This document shows, one piece after another, positions 5,311 through 37,509 of a stretch of DNA of 37,509 bases (position 1 is the stretch's first letter; every line of letters begins with the position of its first letter). The DNA is taken from the IMG/VR virus record IMGVR_UViG_3300046517_001320, positions 1 through 37,509 of that record; one strand, written 5' to 3'. A program made the translations under genes and the position numbers. A model generated the notes under the pieces. It did not search any database, was not told the DNA's origin, and saw only the letters and a list, made by a program, of their open reading frames with translations. Source of the stretch: a virus.

Positions 5311-6296
5311 TATTCATATTCTCCTGTAGCAAGATTATACGTCAGTCCAGATGCAGGTTGCGCGGGAGCGGTTCCTTCTTCTGGAGTTTCATCATAAATA
5401 TCTGCATTTTTAGCAGCTGAAGTAAATGTTTTCATTTCTGTTTTTAATATATGTTTAAATTTATTGAAACGTGCTTTAGCTGCTTTTGGATCTTCAATCC
5501 ATGAAGATGAATTAGTTAATTTTTTCAAATCATTTTGTACAGAAGGTGTGATTGAATCTCCATAAAATTGCCTAACTTGTTTTGCCAATGTATTAGCAGC
5601 AACCAATGATTCCTTGTAGGCAATATATTTTGGAGAAGCATTTCCTTGCGCTGAAGCCAAAGAATCTTTAACCAATTCAGTCGCGCCCTTTAATCCTGAA
5701 TAGGTTGTAAGATTATCCACATTTAAATTATCAACAGTTTTTTCAACATTCTTTCCATATAAAATTCGTTGACGTACTCCAGTATCAGTAACATCTTTTA
5801 AATCTTTTAATTTATACATTCCTTTCAAACGTTCTTGCTGGTCAGGTCTTAATGTAGTACCCGTTCTATTACCTACAGCGGAACCTGGCATAACACCCTG
5901 ATCTATTTCAGCTTCTTCCTGAGCGCGTTTTCCTTCTGGCGTGGCAAAACGTTTGCCTTGCGTGTCCATCAATGATTGCTGATAAGCCATTGTCTGTTCG
6001 GCTCTGCGTGTTTCAAGATCGTAAAGTTTTTTAGTTGATTGATATTCAGGGCTATTTTCACCATATTTACGCTTTATCATTTCAACAGCTAAAGCTTTAC
6101 CTGCAGCCCCGGGCATTTCCCGACCACCAAAAGGAAGTTTAGCCAATTCTTCATTACGACTCGCCTGAGCCAATTCATTTTTAGCCTGAGCATCCTTTAA
6201 TGGTTGACCTGCTTTTCTGGCGCGTACTTTTTCCAGATAATCAAAAACATCATCAAAAGAACGATTAGGTGCGGAAATTGGTAATCTTGCGTCCAT
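5310..6296 (-). CDS. Internal virion / ejection protein candidate, coiled coil (328 aa)
   Basis: ATG 6296 is chosen because AGGAGG lies just upstream (6303-6310). A start eight codons earlier lacks such a site and would overlap the preceding gene more. The protein is almost entirely helical with several coiled-coil stretches (residues about 20-110 and 170-300), no transmembrane segment and an acidic, proline-rich tail. It is the second of three genes in the ejection-protein position of P22-like phages. The assignment rests on gene order and composition. Confidence 0.6.
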   Translation of the reverse strand: MDARLPISAPNRSFDDVFDYLEKVRARKAGQPLKDAQAKNELAQASRNEELAKLPFGGREMPGAAGKALAVEMIKRKYGENSPEYQSTKKLYDLETRRAEQTMAYQQSLMDTQGKRFATPEGKRAQEEAEIDQGVMPGSAVGNRTGTTLRPDQQERLKGMYKLKDLKDVTDTGVRQRILYGKNVEKTVDNLNVDNLTTYSGLKGATELVKDSLASAQGNASPKYIAYKESLVAANTLAKQVRQFYGDSITPSVQNDLKKLTNSSSWIEDPKAAKARFNKFKHILKTEMKTFTSAAKNADIYDETPEEGTAPAQPASGLTYNLATGEYE

Positions 6297-6297
6297 G

Positions 6298-6903
6298 TTA
6301 AGCTCCTCCTCCGCCACCATAAGCTTTGGCTGCGGCAGAAATTAAATCTCTAGCCATGTCACCCGGTGCATTTGTAGCGCCATATTTTGCCTGACCCATT
6401 GCTCCGCCCATTTGCATAGCCTGATTGCTCATATTCCCAGCTGTTGTCGCGCCAATACCATACATATCTTTGCCTATTCCCACTCCAGCCATGTATTTTT
6501 TCATTAAATCCTGCAGATATTCCGAACGATCTTTATTCATGATATCGGATGATGATTGCTGGATATTCTGAGTAGCAGCTGAGCTACCCAATAAGCCTTG
6601 TGAGCTTGCAGCATCTAGGCCAGAAGCCGAAGCATTTTGCATAGAGCGCTGAGCATAAGGAGAAGTTTTGTACTTATCCATCCATTCGCTCAAAAGCTTA
6701 GATGGATCAAGCAAATTATTTTCAGCAGTATTTAAACGACCAGTTTGATCAAGACCATTTTGCCTAAACGGTTCCTGCGCGCCTTTTGCTTCGTTGTAAT
6801 ATTTTTCATATTCTTTCGCAGCATCTTCATAACCCTCTTGCGGGTTCCAAAATGAATGAATCATTCCAGGCACTGCGCCAATTGCATCTAATCCGAAGGC
6901 CAT
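6298..6903 (-). CDS. DNA transfer / ejection protein candidate (201 aa)
   Basis: ATG 6903 is preceded by AAGGAGCATAAGGAT. Upstream in-frame starts would run deep into the neighbouring gene. The protein begins MAFGLDAIGAVPGMIHSFWNP, has a helical Gln/Ala/Ser-rich centre and many Met-Gly and Gly-rich stretches (AMQMGGAMG, AYGGGGGA at the end). Gly/Ala/Met-rich small proteins at this position act as internal virion proteins that enter the host envelope with the DNA in P22 (gp7-like). The stop is two bases before the ATG of the next gene. Confidence 0.6.
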   Translation of the reverse strand: MAFGLDAIGAVPGMIHSFWNPQEGYEDAAKEYEKYYNEAKGAQEPFRQNGLDQTGRLNTAENNLLDPSKLLSEWMDKYKTSPYAQRSMQNASASGLDAASSQGLLGSSAATQNIQQSSSDIMNKDRSEYLQDLMKKYMAGVGIGKDMYGIGATTAGNMSNQAMQMGGAMGQAKYGATNAPGDMARDLISAAAKAYGGGGGA

Positions 6904-28442: not shown

Positions 28443-28507
28443 TTTTCATTCTCCTAAATAATGTTTCACGAAATTGTTTCACGCTCTCTAAACATAGAAA
28501 AAGGGGA

Positions 28508-28792
28508 TTATCTCTATCTCTATTCATAAGTATATAATAATAATAATAATAATAGAGATAATTGTATATTATATTAGCGATAACGTTATCGCTATATACC
28601 GATAATGTATTAGATTATCGCTATTATTATCGCTAATTAAATGTACAATTATCGCTATTTTTCCCCGTAAACACGGGGGTTGAAAAATAGCGATAGCGAT
28701 AAAGGGTGTGTATATAGCAAATATTTTTTTGGTCAAAAAAAAACCAGATAATCAAGAGAATATCTGGTTTGCTTTATCGCTATTTATCGCTA
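28508..28792. other. Iteron-type origin of replication (ori)
   Basis: Nine copies of TTATCGCTA (one lacks a base) occur: five on plus at 28615, 28627, 28649, 28774, 28784, one on plus in a 20-bp palindrome at 28575-28594 with its minus partner, and minus copies at 28688-28695 and 28694-28702. A large hairpin has arms TATCGCTATTTTT (28650-28662) and its complement at 28683-28695, plus CCCCGT/ACGGGG. An AT microsatellite (TAA)n at about 28533-28553 is framed by TTATCTCTAT/ATAGAGATAA. It lies beside the RepA-like helicase gene, so this is very probably the origin. The iteron matches neither the DnaA box nor a known phage O site. Confidence 0.85.
28735..28770 (-). terminator. Intrinsic terminator of the rep operon
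   Basis: On the minus transcript, AAACCAGATA pairs with TATCTGGTTT (28741-28750 and 28761-28770) across a 10-nt loop and is followed by a run of nine T, a canonical rho-independent terminator. It ends transcription from the helicase gene before the origin and the gene at 28442. Confidence 0.9.
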
Positions 28793-28801
28793 TTTATTTG
28801 A

Positions 28802-29947
28802 TCATTTTCCGATATACCAGATAAATTTTCGCTTATCCATCTGACTTCCTTCCATTATGATGTTTGTTCCTTCCTGTTTTAACTTCTGTCTGGCAAGCTT
28901 GAGTGTATGTTGATTGATTTCTTCATTTTCGGCTGCCTTGTAAATATCATCCCGGCTTTTAGCCCCGCTCATTAACATTCGCAAAATAAATTCCTTTGCT
29001 ATTTCTGTCTCACATCGCTGGTCATATGCTTTTTTATTGACCGCTTCATCAGCATCCATATTTACTTTGCCAGTTTGCCAGTCAATACGGGATGTAATTA
29101 CTTTTATAGCGCCAATCATTATTTCTTCCTGCTTGATTCGATAACTTAATCCCTCAGGTTTTTTGTGGTTGGTTTTGGAAGCGGTGCAAATATATAAATC
29201 GTGGTCATCATGGTGACGGGTAAAAGAAAACGCCATGCGTACCGTATTACCCCACGCACTCGAACCCATAATCTCATCACTGGCAGAAGTAATATTTTCA
29301 CTATTGCCAGACGATTTTCTAGTATGAGTATTTAAAATATTTGCCAATTTATATTTGATAGCGATTTTATTTAAACGCAAAATGAGATTGCGAATTTCAG
29401 TTGCGCGATTTTCTTTTATATCGCCAAGATATGCAGTAATAGGATCAAAAAATATCGCCTTAACATTACCAATTTCTTCAATAGATTTTTCAATAGCTAA
29501 AATATCTTGATCTAATCTGATAAATCTTTCCTTGGATTTTGTAGCCTTATCTATTGCTGATTCGATAATATGAATATTCGAAAGATCGGCTCCGGCTGCC
29601 ATTAATCGTGGAATAATTGTATATGCTGGATGATCCTCGGCTGAAAGAATAATAACATTTCCTTGCATGATTTCATGAGCTTGATCGCCAGTTGAAAATG
29701 AATGTCCATTACTAATAATTGCAGCAAGCCACATTAAAAATTGACTTTTTCCAATACCTCCCTTCCCTGCCATTAGCGTACATGTTTCAAGAGGGATGTA
29801 ACCTTGCCATAACCACGGCTGCTCAAGTGGTTTTATTTCAGTGGCATTTAAAACATTTAATTCAAATAATTCACTTACATTTAGATTGGAAAAACGTAAA
29901 TCGTTTTTTCTTTCGTCGTGCAGTTCGGAAAATGTTTTGTCTCTCAT
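28802..29947 (-). CDS. RepA-like replicative helicase (RecA-type AAA ATPase)
   Basis: 381 residues. Walker A GKGGIGKS at 61-68, Walker B strand AIFFDP with D168, and NILNTHTRK and a switch glycine-rich region typical of RepA/DnaB-type ring helicases of plasmids and phages (AAA_25). The C-terminal 100 residues form a winged helix-like part (KSRDDIYKAAENEEINQHTLK). It unwinds the phage origin, probably loaded through the adjacent iterons. No separate primase is visible, so host primase is likely used. A terminator follows at 28735. Confidence 0.88.
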   Translation of the reverse strand: MRDKTFSELHDERKNDLRFSNLNVSELFELNVLNATEIKPLEQPWLWQGYIPLETCTLMAGKGGIGKSQFLMWLAAIISNGHSFSTGDQAHEIMQGNVIILSAEDHPAYTIIPRLMAAGADLSNIHIIESAIDKATKSKERFIRLDQDILAIEKSIEEIGNVKAIFFDPITAYLGDIKENRATEIRNLILRLNKIAIKYKLANILNTHTRKSSGNSENITSASDEIMGSSAWGNTVRMAFSFTRHHDDHDLYICTASKTNHKKPEGLSYRIKQEEIMIGAIKVITSRIDWQTGKVNMDADEAVNKKAYDQRCETEIAKEFILRMLMSGAKSRDDIYKAAENEEINQHTLKLARQKLKQEGTNIIMEGSQMDKRKFIWYIGK

Positions 29948-29949
29948 AA

Positions 29950-30288
29950 CTAAAAATCCCTTTTATAGACAGTTGGAATAAAATCCACAGTAATAACTGT
30001 GACCTTAAAAGCTTCATGCTTAAATAAAATATATACAACGTCTTCAATATACGTTGCCTTTTGCGGAGAGGTTTCTATGATCAAAATATCACAATCCCTG
30101 ACTGGCCACATATAATCTATTGGCCGTTCACTGGAGGGCAATATAAGAGTGCGAGCAGGACGACAGATAGAGGATGATTTGCCTTTTTGCCAAGCAAATT
30201 TTCCGATATATAGATAAATAGAATTGTTTGGGAGCGCGCCTGCATCAAGCAGCGCTTTAAGAGGCTTGCCAAAAGGAGGTATTTTCAA
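29950..30288 (-). CDS. Conserved phage protein, unknown (112 aa)
   Basis: MKIPPFGKPLKALLDAGALPNN then SIYLYIGKFAWQKGK, a pattern I recall from uncharacterised replication-region proteins of proteobacterial phages. Ends in a VTVITVDFIP strand. No catalytic motif can be named. It lies two bases before the helicase gene, so the two are probably coupled. GGAG lies 13 bases upstream of ATG 30288, a weak site. Confidence 0.65.
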   Translation of the reverse strand: MKIPPFGKPLKALLDAGALPNNSIYLYIGKFAWQKGKSSSICRPARTLILPSSERPIDYMWPVRDCDILIIETSPQKATYIEDVVYILFKHEAFKVTVITVDFIPTVYKRDF

Positions 30289-30551: not shown

Positions 30552-30851
30552 TTAAAGCCAGCCAAACCCTTTTGCCATAATGCCAAATGCAGTACCGGTT
30601 AAGCCAAAGATAGCACTAAGTGTCCATATAAAATTAGCCCATAATTGCCTATCAAGGCTATTCATGCGTGTGTTCATAAAATTTAATCTTGCATCAACCT
30701 CTGAAAAGCCTTTATCAATTTTAGTTTCAATTCTTTGCAGTGATTCGCTAATATAGCCTATACTTTGTTCAAGTAGTGCAGTTCTTGTTTCAATATTATT
30801 TTTCATAATTTCGTCATCCGGTTTTCTTAGTCTGCTCATCGTCAATTTCAT
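30552..30851 (-). CDS. Coiled-coil protein with C-terminal membrane helix (about 99 aa)
   Basis: A charged coiled coil (RIETKIDKGFSEVDARL) is followed by WANFIWTLSAIFGLTGTAFGIMA, shown by its key part FIWTLSAIFGLTG, a single membrane helix. The layout resembles XhlA-like or DUF1640-like phage proteins. It overlaps the repressor-like gene by 38 bases if ATG 30851 is used; internal ATGs at 30839 (MSRLRK) or 30806 (MKNNIE) are possible. Immunity-region position suggests superinfection exclusion, but this is inference. Confidence 0.6.
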   Translation of the reverse strand: MKLTMSRLRKPDDEIMKNNIETRTALLEQSIGYISESLQRIETKIDKGFSEVDARLNFMNTRMNSLDRQLWANFIWTLSAIFGLTGTAFGIMAKGFGWL

Positions 30852-31062
30852 CCATGCTGTTAATAAAGTCCTGATAAGTTATCTTTATGCCTTTTTCATC
30901 TACAAATTTCATTACCTTTCTAATTGTTTTATAGGAAATTTTTCGCAAACCTTTCTCGTATAGACACATAGAGGATGGGGTTACATCGATAGCACGGGAA
31001 AGCTCCGCCTGACTTAGGCAAAGCTCATGACGAATTTTTCGAAACAGGTCACTTAAAGTCAT
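30814..31062 (-). CDS. Cro/CI-type HTH repressor-like protein (82 aa)
   Basis: ATG 31062 follows AAGGAGAATAAAA; upstream starts are not needed. HTH_3 motif LCLSQAELSRAIDVTPSSMCLYEKG lies at residues about 13-38, key residues Q-A-E-L and S-S. The C-terminus is short, without a CI peptidase domain, so it is Cro-like in size. It is divergent from the recombination block, the usual immunity layout. It is the prime candidate to bind the shared ATTACAC sequences in the 31112-31160 and 25814 promoters. Confidence 0.82.
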   Translation of the reverse strand: MTLSDLFRKIRHELCLSQAELSRAIDVTPSSMCLYEKGLRKISYKTIRKVMKFVDEKGIKITYQDFINSMDEIDDEQTKKTG

Positions 31063-31098
31063 TTTTATTCTCCTTATTATTTGTGATTTATGAGGCTT

Positions 31099-31127
31099 TT
31101 TATAAAACATGATTACACTTTTGTCAA
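31099..31127 (-). promoter_or_regulatory. Promoter of the repressor-like operon
   Basis: On the minus strand, TTGACA (31127-31122), a 17-base spacer and TATAAA (31104-31099). An ATTACAC copy at 31112-31118 (plus sense) lies within the spacer. It faces away from the recombination-block promoter, forming a divergent control region. Confidence 0.82.
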
Positions 31128-31144
31128 TTAAAGATAATAATAGC

Positions 31145-31184
31145 ATTACACAGTATTGACTTTAATTTGCGGAGCTTGTAATAT
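31145..31184 (+). promoter_or_regulatory. Promoter of the recombination block with operator-like sequence
   Basis: TTGACT (31156-31161), 17-base spacer, TAATAT (31179-31184). The 16 bases 31145-31160 (ATTACACAGTATTGAC) match 25814-25829 in 15 positions. The two ATTACAC copies here (31112, 31145) are 33 bp apart, three helical turns, on the same face of the DNA. Confidence 0.85.
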
Positions 31185-36423: not shown

Positions 36424-37509
36424 TATAGCGCGTACTCCGTAATTATAATGGTTGATGCCAATACTCCACCCATAAATGCTGATCCTGCATTACCATTAAA
36501 TGTAGTAGTATTTCCCAATCCATTACCAGCACGAACCTTGAAAGTGGTGGCTGAGGTAGTTCCAGCTGCCATATAATAAGTAAAACCACATTCTGAGGCA
36601 ATTGATATAGCCGAATTAAACATTCCAGCGGCAAGTGCATTTGCTGTTGAGTCCTGAAATAATGCAACAGCCGTATTGCCAGCGGTTGTTGCACGTGCAA
36701 AAAACATACTGATATCTATTTTTAATACATTGGCAGTATTTTTGGGTGTAATAGCAAGTGTAAGATACTGATCACCTTCGCCGCTTTGAGGAATGGTATT
36801 ATCAATTGGCAACGTAGTTGAACCTGTGGCAACTGATCCTGAAATCGTTCTCACTTGCTGAATAACAGGATTAGTTGCTAAAGCTATCCAGTTTGTTCCA
36901 TTACTTACTAAAGTATTGTTTGCCGATCCTGGCACAGCCCATGTTTCAGTGCTATAAACATTATTTGTAGCATCAGATACAAGAATTTTTCGCGCAGTAC
37001 CACTTGTTGTAGGATAAGTTGGCGTTGACCATGCTGGCGTACCAGCGGTTGAAGCCTGTAATACCTGACCGGTTGTTCCTGCAGCGATAATCGTTGGAAC
37101 GCCTGCACTTGTTGTAACCACTGCACCGCTATTTGCCGAAGTTACACCAGCGATCACATTGGCAGAAGATGAGTAAAGAAGTTGATTGATAGTCGTTGTA
37201 GCTGGATATGTAGCAGTTGACCATGCAGGAGCTGCACCAGAGGTTGCTTGCAGGATTGTTCCTGTTGTGCCAGAACCTACTAAAATAGATGGCTGTCCAG
37301 TATTACTGGTAACTAGTACGCCACCATTTGCAGTGGTTAATCCAGAAACAGTTGTGCCGCCTGCAGCATAGTAAGCAATTTCATTGGCATTGCCAGAATT
37401 AACTGTGCCTGATCCAGAAACATTTGCCCAGCTTGGCAATGCACCCGCGCCATTTGACATCAAAAATTGACCCAGAAGACCAACGCCTGACACATTCTGG
37501 AAAGTACCT
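36423..37509 (-). CDS. Tail fibre / adhesin, C-terminal part (continues from 1-1656)
   Basis: Continues the frame from base 1 through the duplicated junction to the TAA at 36425-36423, giving 871 residues in total. 37493 codes GTG in frame, but the true start is ATG 1656. It contains further repeats (GTTGTILQATSGAAPAWSTATYP and GTTGQVLQASTAGTPAWSTPTYP, shown here as the two 'TGxxLQA' units), then a different C-terminal domain from about residue 720: EGDQYLTLAITPKNTANVLKIDI, GFTYYMAAGTTSATTFKVRAG, and a final ASTIIITEYAL, as in beta-sandwich tips that contact host receptors. Its stop overlaps the assembly protein start. Confidence 0.85.
   Translation of the reverse strand, partial: GTFQNVSGVGLLGQFLMSNGAGALPSWANVSGSGTVNSGNANEIAYYAAGGTTVSGLTTANGGVLVTSNTGQPSILVGSGTTGTILQATSGAAPAWSTATYPATTTINQLLYSSSANVIAGVTSANSGAVVTTSAGVPTIIAAGTTGQVLQASTAGTPAWSTPTYPTTSGTARKILVSDATNNVYSTETWAVPGSANNTLVSNGTNWIALATNPVIQQVRTISGSVATGSTTLPIDNTIPQSGEGDQYLTLAITPKNTANVLKIDISMFFARATTAGNTAVALFQDSTANALAAGMFNSAISIASECGFTYYMAAGTTSATTFKVRAGNGLGNTTTFNGNAGSAFMGGVLASTIIITEYAL
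37383..37509. repeat. Right copy of 127-bp terminal duplication
   Basis: Identical to 1-127. One copy should be removed to give the circular genome of 37382 bp. Any feature at 37383-37509 is a duplicate of 1-127. Confidence 0.95.

Follow-up and report, generated by a model that had tools for sequence, protein, structure and literature searches.

What is the function of a block of short repeats that lies directly behind a helicase gene in a tailed phage, and which protein reads it? The window analysed here is the whole of IMG/VR record IMGVR_UViG_3300046517_001320 (37,509 nt; W in the locus comparisons), and the block occupies about positions 28508-28792, after the stop codon of a minus-strand AAA_25 helicase gene. 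The record ends in an exact 127-bp terminal repeat (1-127 = 37383-37509) and is therefore a complete genome, probably circularly permuted; joining its two ends gives a circle of about 37,382 bp (~37.4 kb). The same helicase was found at 100% identity on two other contigs, with an identical repeat block on L001, and a near-identity search of phage records with the window region returned no match. The label of a P22-like phage, given in the initial annotation, agrees with the portal (PHROG 156) and the terminase and extends to these two proteins only; the nearest named terminase, that of Pseudoalteromonas phage H6/1, is 44% identical to that of W. Rfam and tRNA scans gave no matches. GC skew had been proposed as a check on the origin. 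The raw cumulative minimum lay at 31.4 kb and the detrended minimum at 20.8 kb, neither pointing specifically to the repeat block, and because gene direction flips where the raw minimum sits, the skew is uninformative on the place of the origin. The meaning of the block is settled better by comparison of relatives than by its anatomy, which is described first.

Anatomy of the repeat block

A 9-mer scan of the whole genome located eight exact copies of TTATCGCTA and one copy with a single mismatch in 28575-28792. Exact copies start at 28586, 28615, 28627, 28649, 28774 and 28784 on the plus strand and at 28575 and 28694 on the minus strand, and the 8/9 match lies at 28688 on the minus strand. 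All nine copies previously described (six plus and three minus, one of them 8/9, in about 220 bp) were thus recovered, with a span of 218 bp. No exact copy was found outside 28575-28792 in the 37.5-kb genome, indicating that the short repeats are clustered in a few hundred bp and absent elsewhere. With one mismatch allowed, TTATCGCTA had 31 genome sites versus 10.2 +/- 3.0 expected, the surplus sitting in the cluster. When words with at least two G/C were scanned in 220-bp stretches and compared with first-order shuffles, the TTATCGCTA block was the densest 9-mer cluster genome-wide (eight exact copies; at most three in 20 shuffles), and an equal 9-mer density elsewhere, named in the initial annotation as evidence that would count against an origin, was not seen. 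A DNA pattern search of viral contigs for three TTATCGCTA copies returned, beyond copies of the same phage, only two unrelated contigs, in which the unit falls within low-complexity sequence. The unit is not a DnaA box, as had been stated: TTATNCACA occurs at five places in the genome and nowhere in the block, and the cluster of such boxes typical of an oriC-like origin is absent.

Two plus-strand iterons (TTATCGCTA, 28774..28792) lie between the helicase stop codon and an inverted repeat at 28736..28775 (minus strand, AACCAGATA..TATCTGGTT with a loop and T9, z -4.6). The latter is a terminator-like stem ending the helicase operon and not an origin hairpin, and similar terminators are present in L030 and L031. 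The remaining iterons lie beyond this stem. The outer arm of a hairpin at 28650-28695 is made up of inverted iterons at 28649..28702 (28649 plus; 28688 and 28694 minus), two direct iterons occupy 28615..28635 on the plus strand (starts 28615 and 28627), and the copies at 28575 (minus) and 28586 (plus) form an exact 20-bp palindrome (28575-28594), as annotated, which together with the degenerate copy TTATCGGTA at 28597 (minus) fills 28575..28605. At the far end of the block from the helicase is an AT-rich tract (28530..28575), a proposed unwinding element, which contains the reported (TAA)n run as ATAATAATA at 28534-28553 and is flanked by degenerate iterons (TTATCTCTA, 28508 plus and 28553 minus). 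Beyond the block, a second conserved element consists of two CGTG(A/G)AACA units 13 bp apart and recurs in phages with differing iterons (W 28462-28483; L030 6462-6483; L043 6743-6764; L036 2669-2690); it may serve the genes downstream as an operator or a promoter element.

The hairpin itself folds as the initial annotation described, with 13 outer and 6 inner bp, and its inner part (28664..28681) comprises a 6-bp GC arm, a 4-nt loop and a 4-nt bulge; folding z was -5.7 and -6.8 for the two strands compared with shuffles. The outer arm is simply the inverted iteron pair, and since the inner GC arm is missing in the nearest relatives, where the fold was weak (L030, z -2.0) or like shuffles (L031, z -0.2), a structural role of the hairpin is not supported. 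W, L030 and L031 have the same 28-bp gap between the inverted iterons but unrelated spacer sequences, which would fit a constraint of protein geometry, three loci being few, and the spacing is claimed for these three only. A 28-bp spacing shared by the TAGCGAT and GGGCAAAC groups was dropped, because it depends on where the unit edge is drawn.

Repeat blocks and helicase genes in related phages

Relatives were gathered by TerL-based and helicase-based scans of viral contigs; a first contig scan with a single protein as the query had found none. The core relatives keep the layout of a helicase gene followed by a repeat block and an AT-rich tract, the tract being at the equivalent place in L030, L031, L055, L024, L034, L035, L043, L014, L036 and L045. 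The repeat units are lineage-specific (TAGCGATCA, TAGCGACA, GGGCAAAC, TGGGCAACC, ATGAGCGCA, ATGAACTA and GAGAAGTGA), with GGGCAAAC forming the block of L034 and GGGCAACC that of L043. We examined the 350 bp after each helicase stop codon, with the best 7-mer picked automatically and 300 likewise-treated shuffles for each locus. Ten of the 13 core helicases (W, L024, L034, L035, L055, L043, L063, L031, L036 and L045) were followed by a significant exact 7-mer cluster of 5-11 copies, against at most four in shuffles, and at these ten loci no other 350-bp window of the same locus equalled the post-helicase cluster. L037 was borderline, with four copies matched by 2 of 25 other windows. L030 and L014 failed the exact test, their copies being degenerate; mismatch-tolerant motifs, which were picked by eye for these two loci, for L044 and for the repeat-similarity test, gave 7 sites versus a shuffle maximum of 3 in L030 and 3 versus 1 in L014. 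Unsupervised EM motif finding was discarded, as it drifted to AT-rich words.

With the word again chosen automatically and the shuffles treated alike, downstream clusters were also identified at some distant AAA_25 loci (L064, L068, L107, L129 and pCG2) and were absent from many others, e.g. L066, L105, L106, L120, L133 and L136-L141, indicating that the layout of a helicase followed by repeats, although frequent in the core family, does not extend to all AAA_25 proteins. On the 6.8-kb Corynebacterium glutamicum plasmid pCG2 (NC_004534.1, L130), the AAA family ATPase gene matches the W helicase, and right after it CATACAT/ATGTATG repeats, including seven copies of CATACAT, occupy 2337-2650. 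In the bacterial MAG element L129, the repeats behind the AAA_25 gene are long (CGATCCACAAAAGCTATTACGTTTTGTCCT, 5915-6440), unlike the short iterons of the phages.

Repeat similarity was correlated with helicase identity (Mantel 0.63, p 0.0002) and with identity of the helicase C-terminus (0.52, p 0.0008) across 11 related loci, those within a lineage not being independent. The correlation with identity of orf112, the gene directly upstream of the helicase gene, was not significant (0.26, p 0.06), and the helicase-repeat correlation persisted with orf112 controlled for. The repeats correlated no less well with the ATPase part of the helicase than with the winged helix, so that correlation alone would fit either winged-helix recognition or co-inheritance by linkage.

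Natural swaps are more telling than this correlation. L034 and L044 have flanks that are 73-76% identical, with an alignment at 74% that stops at helicase codon 9 and resumes just past the last repeat, and they are unrelated in between; the cassette consists of AAA_25 and GGCAAAC in L034 and of VapE and TGACAGG in L044. The pairs L035/L045 and L035/L044 have the same swap boundaries, and W/L043 is similar. VapE-like helicases occupy the helicase slot of L044, with ten TGACAGGT-type sites (shuffle maximum two), and of L051, where the repeats are weak (two sites at one mismatch). The helicase gene and the repeats are thus replaced together as a single cassette, and this holds even where one of the two helicases is a non-homologous VapE protein. 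In L011 and L012, whose terminases are 77-79% identical to that of W, the slot holds an HTH_36 initiator-like gene, and 5-7 copies of GATCACC or GTATCAC lie within this HTH replication gene (L011 4125-4650; L012 6050-6575). From the pair swaps and these two loci, it follows that the slot is a replication module and that the repeats belong to the replication gene. The joint replacement suggests that the helicase itself may recognise the repeats.

The first nine helicase codons (MSxxRRPDK) are common to the non-homologous AAA_25 and VapE helicases (L034 437-463; L044 1324-1350; also L024, L030, L035 and L045), and the junction lies just after them. They may mark a recombination seam or else serve as a docking tag, for which orf112 is a conceivable partner.

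The helicase as putative initiator and competing explanations

The helicase gene (28802..29947, minus strand) encodes 381 aa with the Walker A motif GKGGIGKS. The protein matches Pfam AAA_25 at 3.3e-25 and, by profile, RSF1010 RepA at 8.8e-10 (matched RepA chain, 279 aa). Its AlphaFold model (pLDDT 87) has a RecA core whose best PDB fold match is RepA 1nlf at 8.9e-11. Profile and fold agree with the RepA-like helicase named in the initial annotation, and by homology and predicted fold it would be a hexameric helicase of the RepA type that characterises the RSF1010 class. Residues 305-381 (28805..29035, minus strand) are modelled by AlphaFold2 as a C-terminal winged helix, the proposed iteron reader, with helices at 305-325, 332-341 and 346-358 and wing strands at 362-367 and 375-380; pLDDT is about 90-95 for the domain and 71 for the last residues. 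A profile of this domain gave only weak, unrelated matches to PDB sequences and no solved homologue. The protein contains neither a fused primase domain nor an SF3-type helicase domain, and the RepC initiator and RepB primase families had no match among the neighbour proteins included in a non-exhaustive search.

We consider it likely that 28508-28792 is a replication origin and that the adjacent helicase is its own initiator, reading the iterons through the winged helix. The iteron-type, plasmid-style origin proposed earlier gains support because relatives keep the position, the AT tract and the clustering while the repeats turn over with the helicase and are exchanged with it as a cassette; origin activity of the block is deduced from these sequence patterns, and iteron reading by the winged helix from the AlphaFold model and from SaPI Rep and P4 alpha. 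The C-terminal winged helix would bind the 9-bp iterons on both strands, and helicase copies would assemble on inverted and direct iterons. The adjoining AT tract may then open, the RecA-fold motor would load itself there as the replicative helicase, and the host would supply the rest of the replisome.

An origin could also be read by a separate protein, either orf112 or an unannotated small protein, with the helicase loaded afterwards, as with RSF1010 RepC. The closest solved relative of the helicase is RSF1010 RepA, in whose plasmid the initiator is separate (PMC8965321), and orf112 (29950..30288, minus strand) is conserved immediately upstream of both AAA_25 and VapE helicases and is a candidate replication accessory protein. 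However, repeat identity does not track orf112: L031, with 39% identity to W in this protein, has nearly the repeat of W, whereas L043 (57%) and L045 (55%) have different ones. Moreover, the swapped segment does not include orf112, which stays in place beside a VapE helicase and new repeats. It had no Pfam, PHROG or NCBIfam match, and its predicted alpha/beta fold (AlphaFold pLDDT 95) has only a weak phosphoribosyltransferase-like match and no evident DNA-binding motif. We therefore regard a separate reader as unlikely.

The repeats might instead be operators of a phage repressor or activator acting on the downstream (late) genes or on the helicase operon. An HTH regulator gene (30814-31146) is close by, the block sits between two same-strand genes and one palindrome is operator-like, but the repeats change together with the helicase between flanking genes that stay homologous, at least nine sites spread over the two strands about an AT tract are more than usual operators have, and where an O-like gene takes the slot the repeats fall inside that gene; operators are thus improbable here. 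Very improbable is a reading of the hairpin as a single-strand initiation site or a pRN1-like stem-loop origin, with the iterons secondary. The hairpin of W is strong (z about -6) and an essential stem-loop lies just downstream of the pRN1 replication gene (PMC4234260), but what L030 and L031 keep is the iteron positions and the 28-bp spacing and not the inner arm. Clustered short repeats can also be parS or parC, so the block could be the partition (centromere) site of a plasmid-prophage, but none of the proteins searched was ParA/ParB-like and the repeats travel with the helicase, not with a partition gene, making this the least probable of the readings.

Helicases of the DnaB and RepA types usually depend on a separate protein as initiator or loader. 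If the W helicase reads its own origin, it would be a one-protein initiation system on a RecA fold, and the phages would offer natural matched and mismatched helicase-iteron pairs for working out the recognition code. We give an even chance to a broader proposal, namely that phages, MAG-borne elements and small plasmids such as pCG2 share a widespread class of replicon. Its RecA-fold AAA_25/RepA helicase would bear a winged helix of its own for reading the origin, would act as initiator and would also load itself as the replicative helicase, while a private iteron code that evolves fast would pass between phages with the gene. For origins in uncultured phages and small plasmids, the resulting sequence rule is to inspect the DNA immediately behind the gene of an AAA_25 or VapE helicase, and pCG2 is a convenient laboratory test case for the layout. 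The logic of an initiator-helicase is already known; a RecA-fold AAA_25 helicase may be a new setting for it, as no published RepA-like helicase with an iteron origin in phages was found in the literature covered, to which most subscription journals do not belong. A RepA-like helicase of a lactococcal phage has been studied biochemically in a text that mentions no iterons (PMC8965321).

Comparison with known replication systems

SaPI Rep and SCCmec Cch2 have their iterons immediately behind the helicase gene and recognise them with the C-terminal domain of the protein (PMC7581432). W shares this position of the iterons, and for its helicase too a C-terminal DNA-binding domain is predicted, the winged helix. 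SaPI Rep and Cch2 carry DUF927 or D5/SF3-like domains, whereas the W motor is a RecA-fold AAA_25/RepA helicase of a tailed phage without a fused primase; because the DUF927 or D5/SF3-like domain is missing, the W module would work like SaPI Rep and is not a member of that group. P4 alpha reads iterons at ori and crr. It thus resembles W in its iterons and, as far as the W model predicts, in a C-terminal winged helix on the helicase, and differs in having a primase domain and an SF3-type helicase. The C-terminal winged helix of P4 alpha is its origin-binding domain (Yeo et al. 2002, cited in PMC4234260). A profile search against PDB found no sequence link between it and the W domain. In the crenarchaeal plasmid pRN1, ORF904 has a C-terminal winged helix and the origin stem-loop lies immediately 3′ of the replication gene, past a terminator (PMC4234260). 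W has its block 3′ of the replication gene, for the most part past a terminator-like stem, and a predicted C-terminal winged helix, unlike pRN1 with its stem-loop without iterons and its SF3 helicase with prim-pol. Lambda O-type modules, represented by L011 and L012, occupy the same genomic slot as the W helicase and have their own repeats, but these lie inside an HTH initiator gene and not a helicase gene, whereas the W repeats are intergenic.

RSF1010 oriV has iterons beside an AT-rich stretch, and RSF1010 RepA is not known to have a C-terminal winged helix. Its helicase fold family is shared with W, but RepA is shorter (279 aa) and the iterons are read by RepC. Where that plasmid has 20-bp RepC iterons and ssi hairpins, W has a 9-bp unit and an inner hairpin arm that is not conserved. 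The RSF1010 initiator is separate from the helicase (PMC8965321). The initiator-helicases SaPI Rep and P4 alpha are a better working analogy for the W module than RSF1010.
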